Positions 4,601-42,318 of a DNA stretch of 47,660 bases are shown here, in pieces. Made by a program: the position numbers and the translations under genes. Every line of letters starts with the position of its first letter. The first letter of the stretch is position 1. This DNA comes from Acidobacteriota bacterium (GTDB taxonomy: Bacteria > Acidobacteriota > Blastocatellia > Pyrinomonadales > Pyrinomonadaceae): the NCBI GenBank assembly GCA_021323895.1, contig JAJPKD010000139.1, forward strand, positions 1 through 47,660. Direction: 5' to 3'. The notes beneath the pieces are model-generated. The model made no database searches. It was not told the DNA's origin and saw nothing but the letters and a program-made list of their open reading frames with translations.

Positions 4601-4626
4601 AATTTGAAATGACTCAAAGGAGTTCA

Positions 4627-5346
4627 ATGAGAAAGCAGCTATCTCTGGCATTCAGTTTCGCATTCATCCTGTTGTTGGTTTCTTCGGCCTTCGCCCAAAC
4701 GACTCGCGAACGCAGCACCAAAAAGGCTCGTGCCGCGGCCGATCAGTCAGCCAAGGCGGCGCGCGTCTTCAATCAAATCATGGAGACGCACGAGCGATCG
4801 ATTCCGAAGGACTTACTCGATCGCGCGGAAGCCGTTGCCGTCTTCCCGGGAGTTTTGAAAGGCGGCTTCATCGTTGGCGGCCGCGGTGGCAGCGGCGTGA
4901 TCAGCCGTCGCGTCGCCGGCGGTTGGAGCGCCCCGGCGTTTGTCGATCTCGGCGGCGGCAGTATCGGTTTGCAGATCGGGGTGGCCTCGACCGATTACAT
5001 CCTGTTGTTCATGAACGAGCGAGCAGTGGGATCGCTGCTGAATGACAAGTTTGAAATCGGCGGCGAGGGAAGTGCAGCCGCAGGGCCTGTCGGTAGATCG
5101 GCGAGCGCCTCGACCGACGTGAAGCTCAACGCGCAAATTATTTCTTACTCGCGAAGCAGGGGAGCATTCGCCGGCCTCGAGTTGAAGGGCGTCGTGATCA
5201 AGCCGGACAACGAAGACAACCTGCAGGTTTATGGGATGAGCGCGCGCGACATTCTCACCGGCTCAAACCAGATTTCGATGGAGAAAATGCCCGAAGGCGT
5301 GCGCGTGTTTCCTGAGACGTTGGCGAAGTATTCGACGCGACACTAA
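4627..5346 (+). CDS. SYLF (Ysc84-type) lipid-binding domain protein, copy 2
   Basis: 239 residues from the ATG at 4627, preceded by AAAGGAG; an in-frame ATG at 4609 has no such site. Signal peptide MRKQLSLAFSFAFILLLVSSAFA. The SYLF domain is closely similar to the preceding gene product: 'IPKDLLDRAEAVAVFPGVLKGGFIVGGRGGSGVISRR', 'VDLGGGSIGLQIGVASTDYILLFMN', 'GPVGRSASASTDV', 'ISYSRSRGAFAGLELKGVVI'. Both copies keep the same length and conserved glycines, so neither looks decayed. Likely a periplasmic or membrane-associated lipid-binding protein. Confidence 0.9.
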   Translation: MRKQLSLAFSFAFILLLVSSAFAQTTRERSTKKARAAADQSAKAARVFNQIMETHERSIPKDLLDRAEAVAVFPGVLKGGFIVGGRGGSGVISRRVAGGWSAPAFVDLGGGSIGLQIGVASTDYILLFMNERAVGSLLNDKFEIGGEGSAAAGPVGRSASASTDVKLNAQIISYSRSRGAFAGLELKGVVIKPDNEDNLQVYGMSARDILTGSNQISMEKMPEGVRVFPETLAKYSTRH

Positions 5347-5356
5347 GCGCTAATCA

Positions 5357-6142
5357 CTACGAGCCGATCGCCTTTTCTTTCAATCGTGCGACGATCGACT
5401 CGTCGATAGTGTTATTCACAGGCAGTCCGTTTTGGTGCTGAAACTCATTCAGCGCGCTGAATGTCCGCCGCCCGGCTTGACCATCGACGGGTCCAGGATT
5501 CAACCCCAGATAAGTCAGGTAAACCTGCGCCGTGCGAACCGTGAGGTCAGGCAGTCCTCCATTCGCATACTTCTGATAAGCAGCCGCGAGTCGAGTGTCG
5601 TACTGATTCTCGGCGTATTTCGGCCCATTGTAACCGCGGGCGAAGTCTCGCCAACGGTGATCGCGAAGCGCTCGATGCAAACCATTGTGGACGATCTCAC
5701 CGGTCATCCCGCGCAACTGATCGTTCTCTGATTCCATCATCGCTTTGACCATGGTTTCGACGTCGGGGTAGCCGGCGATTTCCGAATTGAATCCCATTAG
5801 CTGGCCGATGCCCCACGAGACGGCGTCCAGCGCCGCTTTCCGATCTAGCGCGATAGCTTTCGCCAACCGATCGTATTGATGCGCGCCATCACCGCCGTAT
5901 CCTCCTTGATTGCGATTGCTGATATCGGGATGCGCAGAGTCGAACTTGTGGTTCGTTTCCTTACTAAAGATGTGGCGCTCGTACAAGATTGCGGGGCGCT
6001 TATCCGGCAAGAAACCGCAACCGCGCGTTTCGACGTTCAGCACCGCCCACAACTCCGGCGCGTGAATCCCCATGCGCCCGACAACTTCATTCACTCCGGC
6101 TTCGTCGAGAGGAAGCGCAGTTCCGACAAACTCTGTTGGCAT
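5357..6142 (-). CDS. N-acetylmuramidase with C-terminal peptidoglycan-binding domain
   Basis: 261 residues from the ATG at 6142 (AAAGGAG 7 bases upstream). The N-terminal ~175 residues match the N-acetylmuramidase family (DUF3380) found in phage endolysins: 'ALNVETRG'-type catalytic region read here as 'AVLNVETRGCGF', 'ILYERHIFS', 'SWGIGQLMGFN', 'WRDFARGYNGP'. The C-terminal ~65 residues are a PG_binding_1 domain ('YLTYLGLNPGPVDGQAGRRTFSALNEFQ'). It should cut the glycan strand between MurNAc and GlcNAc. No signal peptide is visible, so export must be by another route or through lysis. It is the last gene of a four-gene operon, 27 bases after the endopeptidase gene. Confidence 0.88.
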   Translation of the reverse strand: MPTEFVGTALPLDEAGVNEVVGRMGIHAPELWAVLNVETRGCGFLPDKRPAILYERHIFSKETNHKFDSAHPDISNRNQGGYGGDGAHQYDRLAKAIALDRKAALDAVSWGIGQLMGFNSEIAGYPDVETMVKAMMESENDQLRGMTGEIVHNGLHRALRDHRWRDFARGYNGPKYAENQYDTRLAAAYQKYANGGLPDLTVRTAQVYLTYLGLNPGPVDGQAGRRTFSALNEFQHQNGLPVNNTIDESIVARLKEKAIGS

Positions 6143-6169
6143 GATCGAACTCCTTTTGTGATTGTGCAC

Positions 6170-6802
6170 CTAGAAGCCGAGCGCGGCCCAGGTCTTTGGC
6201 CCAACCAAGCCGCTCGGCGTGATGTTGTGCGCGGCCTGAAAATTTTCGACTGCGTGCAACGTGTCGTTGCCAAACCGCCCATCGACATGAATGCCAAGCT
6301 TCGTCTGGACCAGCTTTACATCTGAGCCGCGATCTCCGAATTTGACGGGCGCGTTCTTCATGCGCAGTCGCACGTGAAAATGATTGTCGTGGCCGTCGTA
6401 GTGTTGGCTCAGGTGCTTTTCGATAACTTTGGGGTCGTTGAAAAGAACGAGCTGGACCGGAGCTTCTTCCCACCACAGATTAATCAATTCTGTCGTCGTG
6501 GCTCGATCGTATCCAGCTTCCAAGTAAGTAACCGGAGCGTTTTGTCCGTCGAGTCGCATCGGCCGGACGTCGATGTCCACACCGAGTCGATGCGACTTAT
6601 GCGGCGGTATCGGCCCTCCGCCCTGCTTGGAAATTTGTCCGATCGAAAAGGGATGGTTCTGGTGCAGTGCCTGCCAGGCTGCGGCTACGCGCAGCGCCGC
6701 TTCGATCGACGATTTCTGGGCAAACTGGAATTCCCCGTGCGCGCCGCGATTGTTGGTGACGAAGCCTGCGCCGCTCTCAGGGAGTTGCGTATTGATTTCC
6801 AT
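6170..6802 (-). CDS. MepA-like (M74) murein endopeptidase with C-terminal peptidoglycan-binding domain
   Basis: 210 residues; ATG at 6802 with GAGGAG upstream. The N-terminal ~135 residues carry the zinc motifs of penicillin-insensitive murein endopeptidases: 'HKSHRLGVDIDVRP' (cf. HxxGxDxD) and 'HDNHFHVRLRM' (HxHxR). The C-terminal ~65 residues are a PG_binding_1 domain ('VQTKLGIHVDGRFGNDTLHAVENFQ'). MepA enzymes hydrolyse peptide cross-links. This member lacks a signal peptide, unlike E. coli MepA, and its fusion to a binding domain is endolysin-like. Together with the muramidase next door it would attack both the glycan and peptide parts of the wall. Confidence 0.85.
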   Translation of the reverse strand: MEINTQLPESGAGFVTNNRGAHGEFQFAQKSSIEAALRVAAAWQALHQNHPFSIGQISKQGGGPIPPHKSHRLGVDIDVRPMRLDGQNAPVTYLEAGYDRATTTELINLWWEEAPVQLVLFNDPKVIEKHLSQHYDGHDNHFHVRLRMKNAPVKFGDRGSDVKLVQTKLGIHVDGRFGNDTLHAVENFQAAHNITPSGLVGPKTWAALGF

Positions 6803-6826
6803 TGGTTTCTCCTCAAAGTTCGATGA

Positions 6827-7078
6827 CTATCGTTGGATTGCGACTTTCTTCAACTGGCCTGAAACCCAAACATCATTACCATCGTCCGATTCGACCAGCG
6901 TGAGTGGCGGCAGCGGCGTGGTGATGTCGCGGTCTTCGAATGACGCATTGTTGGTGTGCGAGGCATCGTCAGCGTCGCCCGAATAAGAGGTCAACTTGAG
7001 CGAGCCCTGCGACTCGGTGTGATTCAGCGTGTTCTGCTGGTCTTGCAGCGATGAGTTTCCATCCACAGTAAAATCCAT
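6827..7078 (-). CDS. Small acidic protein of unknown function in the hydrolase operon
   Basis: 83 residues from the ATG at 7078; GAGGAGG lies 8 bases upstream, whereas the ATG at 7084 is only 2 bases from it. The sequence is rich in Asp, Ser, Thr and Asn ('SGDADDASHTNNASFEDRD') with one 'NDVWVSGQLKKVAIQR' end. No signal peptide or transmembrane segment. I recognise no family. It sits between a secreted protein and two wall hydrolases, with 18- and 24-base gaps. Partner, chaperone or inhibitor roles are possible but unsupported. Confidence 0.7.
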   Translation of the reverse strand: MDFTVDGNSSLQDQQNTLNHTESQGSLKLTSYSGDADDASHTNNASFEDRDITTPLPPLTLVESDDGNDVWVSGQLKKVAIQR

Positions 7079-7096
7079 TGTCATTGCCTCCTCGAT

Positions 7097-8046
7097 TCAT
7101 TTCAGGGCGTCACAAAGCCTTTGCACCTTGTCCGGTTGGTTCAGGAAGCGTCGGGCGACTTCCTTGTACAGAGTCTCCAGGCCTTTAACATCGAGCGCGT
7201 CGATGTCCCCGGCAGTCTTGTCTGGAATTAGATCAAGATTGTCTTTCAGTGCTTGCTTGAGCTTTTTGATCGCGGGAGCTGCCTTCGTAGCATCCTGATC
7301 CCTGGCTTGCGAAAAGACCGTGGCTCGATCTTTATCACAGTCTTGTGCCTGTACCAGTTCTCTTGGCGTACTGATTCTGAGCTGCTGTGCCTTTCGTCTT
7401 TTGCCTTAACCGCGTCGTTCGCTTCTGCGCCGGTATCGACGTTCAGGCTGCTCAACGCATCGTCCATCGTTCCGGCGAAAAAGTAGTTCCGCAAATCGGT
7501 TCGCGCTTTCTCCCAGGGGTAGGTGCGGACGTCGTCATTCAACTTCTCATAGATTGCGCCGAGCACTTTTGCGCGGTTCGCCACCATCTTGTTGAAGAGG
7601 ATTTGCGCCTCGAGCAGCCGAAAGTCTTTGTTCGCGGCGGTGTGAGTTCCTTTAAAGCCCGTTAGCACCTCGTTCAGCACAGTCTTTGCCCGTTCGCCGT
7701 TGACAACGGCGGCCACGCTTGACATGCCAATCTCCAGAAAGTCAAAAAGAAACTGAAGCAGGTCGTTTCTCTTTCTTGAGTTCTTGCGATAGTTGTTGAA
7801 GACAATGTCGATCTGCTCGACTCCGGTGTAAATCAACTTGTTGCGAATTAGCTTCGCCTGATCGGGGGTGTTTGTCTCATAGGTCTTATACTTGTCGAGC
7901 AAGTCGTTGACGTAAACCTTTTCGGCGTCGGCCTCACTCTTGAGCAGCGGAGGCTGCTTCTGCGCTTGGACCACGGTGCTGGTTAGCACTATTGCGCAAA
8001 GAACTCCGGAAGCAACGATCTGCATAAACAGCTTTGATAGACTCAT
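7097..8046 (-). pseudogene. Secreted protein of unknown function, interrupted by a frameshift
   Basis: ATG at 8046 with GGAGGA upstream. The protein begins with a signal peptide (MSLSKLFMQIVASGVLCAIVLTSTVVQAQ) followed by a mostly helical region up to 'GAEANDAVKAK'. The original frame then runs into a basic, unconvincing tail ending at 7246. The -1 frame instead opens just after a stop near 7406 and continues as 'VFSQARDQDATKAAPAIKKLKQALKDNLDLIPD...RFLNQPDKVQRLCDALK' to a TGA at 7097, right before the next gene's Shine-Dalgarno. The simplest reading is one gene of ~316 codons with a single-base loss, perhaps at the A4 run (7399-7402). It could be a real mutation or a sequencing error. First gene of the hydrolase operon. 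Confidence 0.75.
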
Positions 8047-15150: not shown

Positions 15151-15162
15151 CTCCGAAAATTG

Positions 15163-15212
15163 ATCCCGTCGCCAGCCTGTCATCGATCGCAGGCAAAAGG
15201 TGACGGGATTTT
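15163..15212 (+). promoter_or_regulatory. Long hairpin sequestering the btuF ribosome binding site (terminator-like)
   Basis: ATCCCGTCGCC (15163-15173) pairs with GGTGACGGGAT (15199-15209) over 11 positions with one wobble; an inner stem GCCTG/CAGGC extends it. TTTT follows. The 3' arm contains AAAGGTG, the only ribosome-binding-like sequence before the likely TTG start at 15211. The hairpin could therefore block translation, end transcription, or do both, as the OFF state of the cobalamin riboswitch. Confidence 0.65.
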
Positions 15213-16173
15213 GATTGTTAGGAAGCAAAATATTACGAGTCCGCGGAACGGACGATCGAGAATATCCCAGCGATTCATCGCTGGGATCCTCTTTTCGTTT
15301 GCGCTAATTGCAACGACATCATGCACTAAACCCGAAAAGAACCTTTCAAAAGCGCAGACGCGCCAAGTCACCGATGAGGCCGGCCGCCGCGTCATTCTTC
15401 CCACGAAAGTCGATCGCATCGTTTCGCTCGCGCCGAACCTAACGGAGATTGTTTACGCAATGGGGGCCGGGGAACGACTCGTTGGCGACACGACTTATTG
15501 CGATTATCCCGAAGCCGCGAAGAGCGTCGCCAAGGTCGGCGACACGATGCATCCCAGCGTCGAGCGCATCATCGCGCTCAAGCCGCAGATCGTTTTGGTT
15601 TCGACGGCGTCGCAGCTGGAAGCGTTTACGAAGCAACTCGATGAGCAGCACATCGCGGTTTACGTGACGAATCCGCGCAATCTTGATGAGGTGTTTCGAT
15701 CGATCGAGACGCTTGGCGATTTGTTTGGCAGCCACGATCGCGCGGCAAGTCTGGTAGCGGATTTGCGCCGGCGAGCGGCGGCGGTAGCGGCGGCCACCAA
15801 GCCGACGCCACCGGTAAGAATCTTCTATCAAGTTTCAGATTCACCCCTCTACACGATCGGACGCGAGGCTTATCTGACGGATCTCATCCGGCGCGCCGGC
15901 GGAGTTTCAGTGACCGCCGATGTGCCCGGCGCATTTCCACGATTCAGCGACGAAGCCGCGCTTGCATCGAACCCTGACGCGATCATTCTGCCCACGGGTG
16001 GATCGATGGGTAACGCGAATTCAACGGTTGCGCCGGCCTTCAAAGGTTCGCCCGCGGTTCTGAACAATCGCATTTACAAAATCAACGAAGATCATCTGCA
16101 ACGGCCGGGCCCACGTTTGGTCGATGGCCTGGAAGAAATGGCGCGCGCGCTGCATCCGGAGGCGTTCAAATGA
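15211..16173 (+). CDS. btuF: Vitamin B12 ABC transporter substrate-binding lipoprotein
   Basis: About 320 residues from the TTG at 15211; the track start at 15160 lies inside the regulatory hairpin. The N-terminus gives a lipoprotein signal, 'RFIAGILFSFALIATTSC'. The PF01497 domain follows: 'DRIVSLAPNLTEIVYAMGAGERLVGDTTYCDYPEAAK', 'PSVERIIALKPQIVLV', 'SDSPLYTIGREAYLTDLIRRAGG'. It would bind cobalamin in the periplasm and hand it to BtuCD. The family also includes iron and haem binders; the riboswitch makes B12 the confident call. The downstream permease overlaps by ATGA. A perfect 10-bp hairpin lies inside the signal-peptide codons. Confidence 0.9.
   Translation: MIVRKQNITSPRNGRSRISQRFIAGILFSFALIATTSCTKPEKNLSKAQTRQVTDEAGRRVILPTKVDRIVSLAPNLTEIVYAMGAGERLVGDTTYCDYPEAAKSVAKVGDTMHPSVERIIALKPQIVLVSTASQLEAFTKQLDEQHIAVYVTNPRNLDEVFRSIETLGDLFGSHDRAASLVADLRRRAAAVAAATKPTPPVRIFYQVSDSPLYTIGREAYLTDLIRRAGGVSVTADVPGAFPRFSDEAALASNPDAIILPTGGSMGNANSTVAPAFKGSPAVLNNRIYKINEDHLQRPGPRLVDGLEEMARALHPEAFK
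15264..15287 (+). other. Perfect 10-bp hairpin inside the btuF signal-peptide codons
   Basis: ATCCCAGCGA-ttca-TCGCTGGGAT followed by CCTCTTTTCG. The stem is perfect with a tetraloop. It overlaps the codons for SQRFIAGI of the signal peptide. It looks like a second intragenic attenuator or a fortuitous stem; the T tract is interrupted. Confidence 0.5.
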
Positions 16174-17183
16174 TTTCCGGATCGGCACGTACGACTTTGA
16201 TGCGGACTGCGTCCATCTGTGGACTGCTCTTGCTAACGCTTGTCGTCGTAATCGTAATCGCCGCCGTAATCGGAAGTCAGCGACTACCTTTTGGGAGCTC
16301 ACTCTGCGCGCTCTCCGGCAAGTCAAACTGCGGATTGAGTTCCGAAGAGCACGCGATCCTTTTCGATCTTCGCTTGCCGCGCATCTTGCTAGCTGGAGCC
16401 GTCGGCGTTTGTTTAGCGACGGCAGGGGCCGGTTATCAAGCACTGCTGCGCAACCCGCTCGCCGAACCCTACTTGCTCGGCGTTTCGAATGGCGCTGCCG
16501 TCGGCACGATGATCGCGCTCGTTTTCTTTGGCGCAGCGGAATGGAGCCGGCCGGTGATGGCGTTCGCCGGGGCGCTGATTGCTTCGTTCATCGTTTACCA
16601 GCTCGCGCGCGGCCGCGCTGGCGCGACGCCGGAGCGACTGATTCTGGCGGGCGTAATTGTGACTACTTTTCTTTCGTCCGCGATCGTTTTCATAACCACG
16701 CTGATGGACGCGACGCGGATTCGTTCATTCACGTTTTGGTTGTTGGGCGATCTGTCGGGAACCACGACGAGCCTGCTGACGATCACATTCATCGCCGTTT
16801 TGATAGGCGTAATCGTGCTGGCTGCAAACGCGCGCTCGTTGAATCTGATGATGCTGGGCGAACGAGATGCGTTCGACCTGGGGGTTGAGGTTTCACGCGT
16901 GCGAGTCATCGTGTTCATAGCCGCGAGTCTGCTGGTCGGAGCGTCGGTCGCGTCCAGCGGATCGGTCGGCTACGTCGGATTGGTTGTGCCGCATCTCGTC
17001 AGACTTTCGTTTGGCAGCGACAACCGTCTGGTGATCGTCGCGTCGGCGCTGGGGGGCGCCGTGTTTGTGATTTTCGCGGACACAATCGCGCGGACGATTA
17101 TCGCGCCGCGCGAGTTGCCGGTGGGCGCTATCACGGCGCTGATTGGTGCGCCGCTGTTTATTTATTTGTTGAGAAGGGGGTAG
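16170..17183 (+). CDS. btuC: Vitamin B12 ABC transporter permease (FecCD family)
   Basis: 337 residues with about ten hydrophobic segments. FecCD signatures: 'LFDLRLPRILLAGAVGVCLATAGAGYQALLRNPLAEPYLLGVSNGAAVG', 'FWLLGDLSG', 'SVASSGSVGYVGLVVPHLVRLSFGSDNR', 'IAPRELPVGAITALIGAPLFIYLLRR'. It forms the transmembrane channel of the importer as a dimer. It starts in an ATGA overlap with btuF, so the two are translationally coupled. Its TAG stop is the first part of a palindromic repeat that separates it from btuD. B12 specificity comes from the operon context. Confidence 0.92.
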   Translation: MISGSARTTLMRTASICGLLLLTLVVVIVIAAVIGSQRLPFGSSLCALSGKSNCGLSSEEHAILFDLRLPRILLAGAVGVCLATAGAGYQALLRNPLAEPYLLGVSNGAAVGTMIALVFFGAAEWSRPVMAFAGALIASFIVYQLARGRAGATPERLILAGVIVTTFLSSAIVFITTLMDATRIRSFTFWLLGDLSGTTTSLLTITFIAVLIGVIVLAANARSLNLMMLGERDAFDLGVEVSRVRVIVFIAASLLVGASVASSGSVGYVGLVVPHLVRLSFGSDNRLVIVASALGGAVFVIFADTIARTIIAPRELPVGAITALIGAPLFIYLLRRG

Positions 17184-17244
17184 CGCAAATTGTTAATTTG
17201 CGAAGCGCCGCAAATCAACGAACGCAAATTATCAATTTGCGCTA
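17181..17244. repeat. Nested palindromic repeat between btuC and btuD
   Basis: TAGCGCAAATTGTTAATTTGCG (17181-17202) and CGCAAATTATCAATTTGCGCTA (17223-17244) are inverted copies matching at 21 of 22 positions. Each arm is itself near-palindromic (GCAAATT/AATTTGC). The btuC stop codon forms its first three bases and the btuD ATG follows 1 base after it. Confidence 0.8.
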
Positions 17245-17245
17245 C

Positions 17246-18028
17246 ATGATGCTCGAAGCACGAAACATCACGATCAATTACGGCTCGCGTGCAGCGGTCG
17301 CGGACGTGTCGTTGACCGCGGAGCCGAAAGATGTCATCGCGATCATCGGACCGAACGGCGCAGGCAAATCGACGTTGTTGCGCGCGCTCAACGGCAGCGT
17401 GCCCCTCGCGTCAGGTGAAGTCATGCTCGACGATCGCGCAATCAATTCATATTCGCGTCGCGCGGTTGCGCAAAGAATCGCCGTCGTGGCTCAGGAAGCT
17501 GAACTTCGTTTTCCGGTGACAGTGACGGAGTTCGTGCTCGGCGGTAGGTTCGCCTGGTCGAACGCGTGGGGCTGGGAAACCGAACGCGATGTGGAGATTG
17601 TGCGCACGACGCTGCGCGAAACCGAACTTGATGGCTTTGCGGATCGGTTGATGAATGAGTTGTCGGGCGGCGAACGGCAACGCGCGGTGCTCGCGCGGGC
17701 GCTGGCAACTGAAGCAAAAATTCTGCTGCTTGACGAGCCCACGGCGAACCTCGATCTGGCGCATCAGGCGATGATGCTGCGGCTCGTGCGCGAGCGCTGC
17801 GATCGATCAGAAACCGCCGCCGTCGTTGTGACGCACGACATAAATCTCGCGGCTGAGTTCGCGACGCGCGTGATGCTCTTGAAAAACTCGCGACTGATCG
17901 CCGTGGGTTCGCCGCGCGACGTTTTGACGGTCGATTTGCTCAAGGAAATTTTTGGTTTGCAGGTGCTCGTGGATGCGCATCCGATCAGCGGCGCGCCGCG
18001 AGTCACACCGATTCACACGCAACGATGA
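17246..18028 (+). CDS. btuD: Vitamin B12 ABC transporter ATP-binding protein
   Basis: 260 residues from the ATG at 17246 (or 17249); upstream track residues are encoded by the repeat. Walker A 'GPNGAGKST', Q-loop region 'VAQEAELRFPVTVTEFV', ABC signature 'LSGGERQR', Walker B 'ILLLDEPTANLD', and the switch His in 'VVVTHDINLA' are all intact. It powers cobalamin import through BtuC. The stop overlaps the ATG at 18025 of the receptor reading frame. Because a repeat separates it from btuC, its translation is likely independent of btuC. Confidence 0.92.
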   Translation: MMLEARNITINYGSRAAVADVSLTAEPKDVIAIIGPNGAGKSTLLRALNGSVPLASGEVMLDDRAINSYSRRAVAQRIAVVAQEAELRFPVTVTEFVLGGRFAWSNAWGWETERDVEIVRTTLRETELDGFADRLMNELSGGERQRAVLARALATEAKILLLDEPTANLDLAHQAMMLRLVRERCDRSETAAVVVTHDINLAAEFATRVMLLKNSRLIAVGSPRDVLTVDLLKEIFGLQVLVDAHPISGAPRVTPIHTQR

Positions 18029-39496: not shown

Positions 39497-40387
39497 ATGA
39501 AACGAATCTTATTTCTTGTGGCGGTCTCGGTGCTGCTGATGTCGGGGCTCAGTTGTTCGCGTTTTCGCAACGCGCCAACGAACGCCGGAGCCGAACGCTA
39601 CGTCGTCATCTCGCCCATCTACAACGAAATTATTTGGGCGCTCGGTGCGCAGGACAAAGTCGTCGGAGTCGATCTCTCCACAACATATCCGCCTGACGTA
39701 AAGAACAAGCAAACCGTTGGCTATCATCGCGCACTCAGCGCGGAAGGAATTCTCTCCCTGCATCCCACCGCCGTCATTCATGACAACAACATCGGCCCGC
39801 CGCAGGTCGTGCAGCAACTTCAGCAGCTCAACATTCCGATGAAGACTTTCACCGCGAAGAACACTGACTTTGATGGTGCGAAGGCTTTGATTCGCGAGAT
39901 GGGCGCGTACTTTCACAAAGAAGCGCGCGCGGAAGAGCTTTGCAAGACGATGGATGAACAGAAGGCGGCGTCTCTCGAAAAGGTGAAGCAGTACACCGAT
40001 CATCCACGCGTCGCGGTAATTCATTTTGGCCGCGCTTCGAACGTTTATCTGGTCGTTGGCAAAGGGGGCGGCGGGGATGGCGGCGGCGTCAGCAAGATGA
40101 TTGAACTAGCCGGCGGCGAAATGGCGGTCGCCAACCAAGGCATGCAGCGGATGGAATCACCGGAGATTCTGGCGCAGGCAAATCCAGATGTGATTCTCAT
40201 GACCGATTATGGTTACGATCGATTGAACGGTTCGCTCGATCAAATTAGGGCGTTACCCGGTGTTGCCACTTCCAATGCCGCCAAAACCGGCCGCATCTTC
40301 CGAATCGAAGAGAACGTGCTAAATTACTTCGGCCCACGCTCGGGAGAGAACATCGCGAAAGTCGCCGACATCATTCATAAGAAGTGA
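39497..40387 (+). CDS. hmuT: HmuT-like ABC transporter substrate-binding lipoprotein
   Basis: 296 residues. Lipoprotein signal with lipobox 'LMSGLSC'. PF01497-type fold: 'YVVISPIYNEIIWALGAQDKVVGVDLSTTYP', 'TVGYHRALSAEGILSLHPTAVI', 'VILMTDYGYDRL', 'FRIEENVLNYFGPRSGENI'. The 'GYxRxLSAEGILSLxP' pattern is characteristic of haem-binding HmuT proteins. It would bind haem, or possibly an iron chelate, in the periplasm. The permease start overlaps its stop (GTGA), so the two are coupled. Haem is the best guess, siderophore second. Confidence 0.82.
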   Translation: MKRILFLVAVSVLLMSGLSCSRFRNAPTNAGAERYVVISPIYNEIIWALGAQDKVVGVDLSTTYPPDVKNKQTVGYHRALSAEGILSLHPTAVIHDNNIGPPQVVQQLQQLNIPMKTFTAKNTDFDGAKALIREMGAYFHKEARAEELCKTMDEQKAASLEKVKQYTDHPRVAVIHFGRASNVYLVVGKGGGGDGGGVSKMIELAGGEMAVANQGMQRMESPEILAQANPDVILMTDYGYDRLNGSLDQIRALPGVATSNAAKTGRIFRIEENVLNYFGPRSGENIAKVADIIHKK

Positions 40388-41418
40388 CCACACCACGCAG
40401 CAGCCGACGCCTTCTCCTTCTAAGTTTGGCTGTCGTCACACTGCTCGTTCTCGCCGCGTCAATTCGCTACGGCGCGATCGACTTCTCAATCGGTGAAATC
40501 AGTCGCGCGTTCGCTTCAATTTTTCCTGGACAACCTGAACCAACTTTAGATCAGCGCATCTTTCTCGAGTTGCGTTTGCCGCGCGCGATTCTGTGCCTGT
40601 TGGTGGGCGCGAGTCTCGGCGTCGGCGGCACGCTGATGCAGGCGCTGTTTCGCAATCCGATTGTTGAGCCGGGACTGGTTGGTACTTCGAGCGGCGCAGC
40701 TTTCGGCTCGGCGCTTTTCTTCGTGCTCGGCGGCGTGCTTCATATCGGAACGAGCCTGTGGAGTTTGCCGATCGCTGCCTGTGTCGGCGGAATCATTTCA
40801 ACCTATCTGGTATTTCTGCTCGCTCGCTCGCGCGAAGACGGGCGCGCGTCGATCGTGATGCTGCTGCTTACGGGTCTCGCGGTGAACGCACTCTTCATGA
40901 GCGCGATCGGATTTCTGTCTTACATCGCGCGCGATCCGCAGGCACGTTCGATTACATTCTGGAGCCTGGGCACATTGTCCGGCGCGAGTTGGAAAGCGGT
41001 CGAGATTGTTGCCGTCTCCACGATTGGAGGATCGATCATGGCGCTTCGCTATGCGAAGCAGCTTAACGCGCTGACGATTGGTGAAGAGGAAGCGACGTAT
41101 CTCGGCGTGAATGTGAATCGTTTGAAGTGGATCATTTTGTCGGTGAATGTCGTGATCGTCGCGGTGGCCACGGCGTTTACCGGCGTGATCAGTTTCGTTG
41201 GGCTCGTGGTGCCGAACATCCTGCGCATGATTGGCGGAGCGGACAATCGATATCTGATCGTCGGAAGTGCGTTGACGGGCGCGACGCTTTTGACTCTGGC
41301 TGATTTGCTCGCGCGCCTCGTCGTACGACCGGCGGAATTGCCTATTGGGATCGTCACGTCGGCGGTGGGCGTGCCGGTGTTCATATTCTTGTTGAGGCGT
41401 AGGCGATACGTGTTTTGA
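40384..41418 (+). CDS. hmuU: HmuU-like ABC transporter permease (FecCD family)
   Basis: 344 residues, ten or so transmembrane segments. 'RIFLELRLPRAILCLLVGASLGVGGTLMQALFRNPIVEPGLVGTSSGAAFG', 'FWSLGTLSG', 'AVATAFTGVISFVGLVVPNILRMIGGADNRYL', 'RPAELPIGIVTSAVGVPVFIFLLRR'. GTG start overlapping the hmuT stop. Paralogous to BtuC at 16170. It forms the haem or iron-chelate channel. The spacer after it holds a palindromic repeat before the ATPase gene, just as in the btu operon. Confidence 0.88.
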   Translation: MTTPRSSRRLLLLSLAVVTLLVLAASIRYGAIDFSIGEISRAFASIFPGQPEPTLDQRIFLELRLPRAILCLLVGASLGVGGTLMQALFRNPIVEPGLVGTSSGAAFGSALFFVLGGVLHIGTSLWSLPIAACVGGIISTYLVFLLARSREDGRASIVMLLLTGLAVNALFMSAIGFLSYIARDPQARSITFWSLGTLSGASWKAVEIVAVSTIGGSIMALRYAKQLNALTIGEEEATYLGVNVNRLKWIILSVNVVIVAVATAFTGVISFVGLVVPNILRMIGGADNRYLIVGSALTGATLLTLADLLARLVVRPAELPIGIVTSAVGVPVFIFLLRRRRYVF

Positions 41419-41441
41419 TCTTTGGGTTGCTTGGCGGCTTG

Positions 41442-41484
41442 GCGCCTTTGCGTGAGATCGGTTCACGCCAAGACGCAAAGGCGC
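41442..41484. repeat. Inverted repeat of the GCGCCTTTGCGT type between hmuU and hmuV
   Basis: GCGCCTTTGCGT (41442-41453) and ACGCAAAGGCGC (41473-41484) are exact 12-base complements, flanked by related 'CTTGGCG' and 'CGCCAAG' segments and further ACGCAAAG. A sequence type recurring in soil-bacterial spacers. It ends 18 bases before the hmuV ATG. Confidence 0.72.
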
Positions 41485-41502
41485 AAAGGAACGCAAAGTT
41501 TG

Positions 41503-42318
41503 ATGCTCACGGCAACCAACATCACTTATCGTGTCGGTACGAAGGAGCTGATCTCGGACATCTCCGTCTCATTCGCTCCCGGCAAGCTGCACCTAATCAT
41601 CGGGCCGAACGGGGCGGGGAAGTCGACGCTGATCAAAGTCCTCGCTCGCCTCGTTCGACCGCAAACGGGCACTGTCCAATATGATCAGACCGATATACAC
41701 GATGCGAGTGAAGCTGACCTTGCCAGGCACCGGGCGGTGCTCTCACAGGCAATCGAAGTTGCTTTCCCTCTGACTGTTCGTGAAGTCGTGATGATGGGGC
41801 GCTATCCGCATTTTGGCGGGCGGCCCGGACCTCACGACGAACGAATCGTCGATGAAGTAATGGCGCATTTTGATGTCACGGCATTTGGCGATCGGAATTA
41901 TCAAACACTCAGTGGCGGCGAAATGCAGCGCGTGAACTTCGCGCGCGTGCTGGCCCAACTCTGGAAAGACAGCCATGGATCAGCCGAAGCGAATGGTTCG
42001 ACCCGTCAAAGCGGGAAATCGCGCTTCCTGTTTCTCGACGAGCCTTTGACCTTTCTCGACGTTCATCATCAAATCGACTTCATGAAGAAGGTCCGCGCGT
42101 TCTCAATGGCGCCCGAGGTCGTAACTGTTGGCGTGGTCCATGACTTGAACCTCGCCGCGAGGTTTGCGGACCATCTAGTGCTGCTCAACAAGGGACGCGT
42201 TGTCGCTAATGGCACGGCTTCTGAAGTGCTGACAACTGATCGCATTCGCGACGTCTTCGCGGTCGAACCCACTTTCGTTCCCACGTCTCACTCGGGCGTT
42301 CATCTCATCTTCGATTAA
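41503..42318 (+). CDS. hmuV: HmuV-like ABC transporter ATP-binding protein
   Basis: 271 residues from the ATG at 41503; the upstream track residues are repeat-encoded. Walker A 'GPNGAGKST', signature 'LSGGEMQRVNFARVLAQLW', Walker B 'FLFLDEPLTFLD', switch 'VVHDLNLAA'. The extra stretch between signature and Walker B ('KDSHGSAEANGSTRQSGKS') is typical of HmuV. It energises the HmuU permease. AAAGGA lies 12 bases upstream and overlaps the end of the repeat, so translation start may be weak. Confidence 0.88.
   Translation: MLTATNITYRVGTKELISDISVSFAPGKLHLIIGPNGAGKSTLIKVLARLVRPQTGTVQYDQTDIHDASEADLARHRAVLSQAIEVAFPLTVREVVMMGRYPHFGGRPGPHDERIVDEVMAHFDVTAFGDRNYQTLSGGEMQRVNFARVLAQLWKDSHGSAEANGSTRQSGKSRFLFLDEPLTFLDVHHQIDFMKKVRAFSMAPEVVTVGVVHDLNLAARFADHLVLLNKGRVVANGTASEVLTTDRIRDVFAVEPTFVPTSHSGVHLIFD

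Follow-up and report, generated by a model that had tools for sequence, protein, structure and literature searches.

An exported and small acidic protein pair with exchangeable leaderless wall hydrolases: a candidate chromosomal lysis cassette in Acidobacteriota

The conserved unit of the cassette described here is a pair of genes, encoding an exported protein and a small acidic protein, to which hydrolases of exchangeable types are attached. The cassette spans positions 5357-8046 of the window, i.e., the whole 47,660-nucleotide stretch that was analyzed, which is contig 312 of a 95% complete draft genome of a soil bacterium of the Pyrinomonadaceae (designated G000; related genomes compared with it carry other G-codes). 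The best explanation of this arrangement, held tentatively at somewhat less than an even chance, is a chromosomal, non-phage cassette for the regulated lysis of the cell that produces it. The exported helical protein and its small acidic partner would form an envelope "head" that is co-produced with leaderless wall hydrolases, which would wait harmlessly in the cytoplasm until release. Upon a trigger, the inner membrane would be breached and the hydrolases would gain access to the wall, where glycan-cutting and cross-link-cutting enzymes would jointly burst the cell, either for release of its contents or for the abortive death of an infected cell. We infer the target (the producing cell), a part for the pair in breaching or gating the membrane, and the existence of a trigger.

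The cassette consists of four minus-strand genes that run from 8046 to 5357 and form a tight operon. The features of the locus are:

7097-8046, minus strand: exported helical orphan, first gene of the operon, with a signal peptidase I-type leader (...TVVQAQ) and a frame broken near 7400
about 7390-7410, minus strand: one-base frame slip in an A-rich stretch of the exported gene; relatives are intact
6827-7084, minus strand: small acidic orphan, 85 aa, pI 4.15, a divergent member of its family
6170-6802, minus strand: leaderless MepA/M74-type endopeptidase with a C-terminal PG_binding_1 domain; the HxxH..D and HxxHxH metal-site motifs are intact
5357-6142, minus strand: leaderless PF11860 N-acetylmuramidase with a C-terminal PG_binding_1 domain; the conserved Glu residues are intact and the nearest solved relatives are phage endolysins
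8360-8941, plus strand: DUF488 gene flanking the cassette site, kept in the genus and outside the mechanism
4609-5346, plus strand: Ysc84/SYLF gene on the opposite flank, likewise kept in the genus and outside the mechanism

Transcription proceeds from the exported protein through the small acidic protein and the M74 protein to the muramidase, with intergenic gaps of about 12, 24, and 27 bases and a Shine-Dalgarno-like sequence ahead of each start. Gene order, short gaps, and these sequences bear out the four-gene operon that an earlier note had proposed from the DNA alone. The operon is divergent with respect to the DUF488 gene and convergent with respect to the Ysc84/SYLF gene. At 0.65-0.70, the GC3 of its genes is no different from that of zwf, gnd, and gcvT (0.65-0.69), and composition thus gives no hint of a recent foreign origin. 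Elsewhere in the window, judged by sequence only, positions 15160-18028 and 39497-42318 hold two transport clusters that look to be of the BtuF/BtuC/BtuD type, each near a TonB-receptor-like ORF.

The muramidase matches PF11860 with E=8e-60 (202.5 bits against a curated cut-off of 22.3) and PG_binding_1 with E=2e-10, and its catalytic domain aligns with solved endolysins (E=2e-36). Its candidate starts are a GTG at 6169, which abuts the M74 stop, and an ATG at 6142 behind AAAGGAG; the latter is the likely start and yields a protein of 261 aa. The M74 protein, a putative cross-link endopeptidase, matches Peptidase_M74 (E=2e-7, 31.5 bits against a cut-off of 25) over the first third of the profile only, as well as PG_binding_1 (E=7e-11). 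Its two metal-site motifs, HxxHxxGxxxD and HxxHxH, do not vary among eight relatives, including a fusion to nSTAND1, while residues E38 and E55 of the muramidase are invariant across seven. From these intact motifs we infer that both hydrolases are probably catalytically competent. Neither carries a hydrophobic leader, with best 15-residue Kyte-Doolittle means of 0.87 and 0.62 within the first 45 residues. Pfam domains and hydropathy therefore agree with the earlier description of two hydrolases with a C-terminal PG_binding_1 domain and no signal peptide. Leaderless proteins of approximately 470-540 aa with a C-terminal M74 domain also occur away from cassettes (L066, L067, L069, L070, and L071); the scanned member, L069, contains SLT, PG_binding_1, and M74 domains.

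The exported protein has a clear hydrophobic leader (2.35 on the same hydropathy measure), as had been claimed for a secreted orphan, but its gene is not a single intact frame. The frame that starts at 8046 follows its family only to approximately residue 215, and as annotated it stops at 7246 with an unrelated tail; the family-matching C-terminal part lies in a different frame that ends at 7097 (E=3e-11 against the G001 relative). Intact relatives in other genomes measure about 310-410 aa. The break may be an assembly or sequencing error or a real mutation; both fit, and the two are indistinguishable because the genome is a draft of 322 contigs. The window copy may therefore be inactive. The break was left as sequenced, and no base was restored in any analysis.

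Leaders within the exported family are of two types: (i) signal peptidase I-like (the window, G001, G080, G003, and others) and (ii) lipoprotein, with LTGC or ATGC (G113, G117, G116, G089, G028, and others). The protein is modeled as helical with low confidence (mean pLDDT 65), and the model matched no known fold. The family has no Pfam match above cut-off and none in NCBIfam or PADLOC, the last searched via the G113 relative. Weak Pfam matches to a TetR_C_5-like domain and to DUF7769, each in one of 16 members, were discarded.

The small protein starts with the ATG at 7084 and has 85 aa (83 aa if counted from the second ATG), so that the acidic orphan reported earlier stands as to its charge but is two residues longer. 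Other members of its family have 99-122 aa. Across the family, pI values lie mostly at 4.1-5.3, with two at 6.1-6.6 and one at 9.0; acidity is thus not strictly conserved. The AF2 model of the G113 homolog (pLDDT 87) has one helix and six strands and no PDB match at E<=0.001, and the family has no match in Pfam (above cut-off), NCBIfam, or PADLOC. No PHROG match was found for the window copies of either orphan. The small protein directly follows the exported gene on the same strand at 16 of the 17 testable loci of Pyrinomonadaceae/Blastocatellia, the exception being G003, which lacks it; G104 is untestable since its contig ends too early. Several loci (G001, G053, G027, and G028) hold the pair without any hydrolase, so the pair has some role of its own.

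The exported family is present in 18 of the 119 genomes of the order, in nine genera. Extending the search to the rest of the class adds no genomes, and two further clear members, both distant and from other families, come from a 396-genome sample of the phylum. A genome-collection scan with an alignment of the exported subgroup returned six loci, all in Blastocatellia/Acidobacteriota MAGs (named records include Pyrinomonadaceae), while the same kind of scan with the single M74 protein gave no match. Six of the 18 genomes have a PG_binding_1 domain no more than 5 kb from the exported gene, versus 0.16 expected (Poisson P ~2e-8), a value made too strong by relatedness within genera; the per-genus figure (three of nine versus 0.08 expected, P ~9e-5) is safer. 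Rather than the isolated housekeeping homologs and unlinked orphans that the earlier note had set against its own reading, the relatives show orphans linked to hydrolases.

Hydrolases in the cassettes are of the muramidase, M74, GH19, Amidase_2, Amidase_3, CHAP, GH46, and M15 types, and all 19 of the hydrolase-type cassette proteins checked lack a hydrophobic leader, as endolysins do. Genes in relatives were called by longest-ORF heuristics and not with a trained gene finder, and the following layouts may therefore lack minor genes:

Window: the pair, then muramidase and M74
G117: the pair, then GH19 and M74
G113 and G116: the pair, then a membrane protein and GH19
G089: the pair, then a membrane/IPT protein, Amidase_2, a basic protein, and a protein that looks caspase-like by eye (no Pfam match)
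G086: as G089, with Amidase_3 (labeled from sequence inspection, not from a Pfam scan)
G080: the pair, then a CHAP/TIGR02594-SH3 protein and a multi-pass membrane protein
G046: C11 and CHAT upstream; a membrane protein, GH46, and M15_4 downstream
G410 (L131 6918-11060): a distant member of the exported family, whose neighbors are a PF04185 phosphoesterase and a two-helix membrane protein in place of wall hydrolases

In two genera, genes for death-type proteases, C11 clostripain and CHAT-TPR, lie as a pair immediately upstream of the exported gene (L094 4430-9756 in G046 and L085 2580-7366 in G104). Multi-pass membrane proteins (TM_A, TM4, TM2, and TM370) stand beside the hydrolase in sister cassettes. 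Lipid-attacking enzymes, either patatin or the PF04185 phosphoesterase (phospholipase C type), are another addition. In G107, a relative of the window M74 domain that retains every metal-site motif forms the C-terminus of an nSTAND1-TPR protein, where it occupies the position of a self-directed effector, a wall hydrolase serving an NLR-like protein; the gene (L074 6515-9439) adjoins a TIR-DUF4062 gene (L074 4749-6518). Amidases are followed by a conserved pair, made up of a basic protein with no annotation and a protein that may be caspase-like but has no Pfam match (L075 14020-15295, L090 13077-14262, and L062 7494-8852).

Cassettes occupy fixed chromosomal sites. In the window's genus, the site lies between DUF488 and SYLF (G000, G113, G116, and G117). 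On the DUF488 side of this site, G118 holds another head, composed of TM370, a 131-aa protein, and a 573-aa exported protein, after which come TM_A, an SH3-GH19 hydrolase, and patatin (L142 9773-18672), and the start of this second-type head is visible in G114. The second head type (TM370, a small protein, and a large exported protein) is also found in G101 (L062 7494-14486). G086 and G101, which belong to another genus, have a second site in common beside a dapA-like gene, at which the two head types precede an identical kind of tail (the Amidase_3 type, the basic protein, and the caspase-like protein). The window M74 protein is 66-68% identical to those of this second genus (G101, G096, and G093) and 38-42% identical to that of its congener G117, whereas zwf shows the reverse (75% with the congener, 54-56% with the second genus). 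Since the two genes disagree in this way, the M74 gene was probably transferred horizontally between lineages.

The absence of leaders from all checked hydrolases and of any immunity gene that covaries with the enzyme argues for lysis of the producing cell. This reading also rests on the sister cassettes, which add membrane proteins, patatin or phosphoesterase, and C11/CHAT, and on the nSTAND1-M74 fusion of G107. Precedents exist in holin/endolysin lysis outside phages (PMC10847048) and in the lysozyme- and papain-like peptidoglycan effectors of conflict systems (PMC7159879). Against it stand the lack of a multi-pass membrane gene at 5357-8046, which leaves the window cassette with no holin candidate, the lack of a spanin pair there, and the lack of a visible regulator or trigger gene, together with the pair-only loci, the low-confidence model of the exported protein, and the frame break in the window copy. 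Of the tail, holin, and secretion genes that the earlier note advised looking for near homologs, multi-pass membrane proteins that may be holins are present in some sister cassettes only, and neither a tail gene nor a T6SS sheath was found in G000.

The main rival to self-lysis is interbacterial antagonism, in which the hydrolases, though they lack a signal peptide, would leave the cell by some other route and lyse neighbors, while the exported protein would anchor, load, or protect them. The exchange at one locus of horizontally moving lytic enzymes with many chemistries is typical of effector arsenals, the versions with patatin and phosphoesterase also fit, and T6SS sheaths occur in 12 of 21 related genomes. 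However, three genomes with cassettes (G113, G048, and G089) lack both the T6SS sheath and the contractile sheath of the phage type, and the same holds for G000 (VipB and phage-type sheath searched), so that T6SS or contractile injection is not a general route, allowing for the 5% incompleteness of G000; as a necessary route for G000 it was rejected. Pfam scans further detected no VgrG, PAAR, or Rhs marker or delivery domains on cassette proteins, and no immunity gene varies with the enzyme, which leaves antagonism rather unlikely on balance. The "endolysin-type or antagonistic module" of the earlier note thus survives as a set of leaderless, endolysin-like wall-degrading enzymes with no phage genes around them and with antagonism possible, but the sheaths of a delivery route are missing from G000. 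That note had also suggested that one of the orphans confers immunity. In such a toxin-immunity operon, the acidic or the exported orphan would neutralize the hydrolases with which it is co-transcribed, and small acidic proteins are often immunity proteins. One pair family nevertheless accompanies at least six unrelated enzyme types (muramidase, GH19, amidase, CHAP, GH46, and M15), also occurs alone, and includes the small member at pI 9.0. Because the pair stays constant while enzyme chemistry changes, the orphans do not behave as enzyme-specific immunity proteins; this role was rejected and is scarcely credible.

The two remaining explanations place the cassette among ordinary envelope functions or viral relics. 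Wall remodeling for growth or for insertion of envelope complexes, with the pair in a structural or regulatory role and the hydrolases making room, would account for pairs that lack hydrolases and for the ordinary genes nearby (SYLF and zwf/gnd), and MepA-type enzymes are housekeeping proteins in Enterobacteria. It is improbable given the patchy occurrence in the order and given that the exchange of enzyme types at one site, the absence of leaders, and the presence of at least two bond specificities per operon are unlike housekeeping autolysins. Descent from a prophage lysis cassette is suggested by PHROG endolysin matches, by the phage endolysins that are the closest solved relatives of the muramidase, and by the endolysin-like character of the GH19 and TIGR02594-type enzymes. 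For the exported protein, however, searches of IMG/VR contigs and of 50,697 phage records gave no relative; the M74 protein has none in IMG/VR, and its matches in the phage records are partial and cover mostly the PG_binding_1 part. The 37 other proteins of the window yielded a list of their 25 most frequent families, none of which is a phage structural family, and the pair is chromosomal and conserved at fixed sites. A prophage remnant was therefore rejected, for want of a viral homolog of the exported protein and of structural genes, and is very improbable.

Beyond a single self-lysis cassette, the two undescribed families may define a new modular, non-phage class of programmed lysis in Acidobacteriota, a broader proposal that is conceivable yet doubtful. 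The pair would serve as a membrane-gating head for interchangeable leaderless effectors that cut wall or lipid, controlled in some lineages by CHAT proteins, clostripain/caspase-like proteases, or STAND sensors. Literature searches that covered such modules in Blastocatellia, hydrolases fused to STAND proteins, and M74 in defense returned no description of the cassette, and no PADLOC model matched the window proteins tested. Should the pair serve as a shared platform for exchangeable lytic enzymes, it would constitute a phage-independent lysis or attack system in a dominant and little-studied soil phylum, assign a testable role to two new protein families, and help explain why leaderless endolysin-like genes persist outside prophages.

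The cassette shares features with several known systems. Its M74 protein has the HxxH..D and HxxHxH metal-site motifs of MepA/Peptidase_M74. MepA is a periplasmic enzyme with a signal peptide, whereas the window protein is leaderless, carries PG_binding_1, and has one relative fused to an nSTAND1 NTPase. The muramidase resembles the PF11860 phage endolysins (7q4s, 5nm7, and 7rum) in that it is leaderless and combines a catalytic with a peptidoglycan-binding domain; it differs in its lack of phage context and in its C-terminal PG_binding_1 domain, which is N-terminal in 5nm7 and 7rum. A T6SS in the genome, as expected for Tae/Tge-like peptidoglycan effectors, was not found in G000.

Non-phage lysis cassettes of the T10SS include ChiWXYZ of Serratia, YenLC of Yersinia entomophaga, and TtsA of Salmonella Typhi (PMC10847048, PMC10109510). 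Like these, the window cassette is a chromosomal operon outside a phage with leaderless endolysin-like hydrolases, and wall breach would be its working step. It differs in having neither holin nor spanin; its logic resembles that of a T10SS, yet it does not belong to that class. Neither a cargo enzyme nor an i-/o-spanin pair was recognized in the cluster, and the exported family is helical and about 310-410 aa long. Further differences are the two hydrolases of distinct predicted bond specificity, the exchangeable enzyme type, and the exported and small protein pair, which is not described for T10SS. The NTP-dependent conflict systems of Kaur et al. (2020; PMC7159879), some of whose effectors attack peptidoglycan, differ by the NTPase, EAD1, and vWA/MoxR components that the window operon lacks, but they share with the cassettes the exchangeable effectors, which include lysozyme and papain-like peptidoglycan peptidases, and the caspase-superfamily proteins that are found nearby in some loci.
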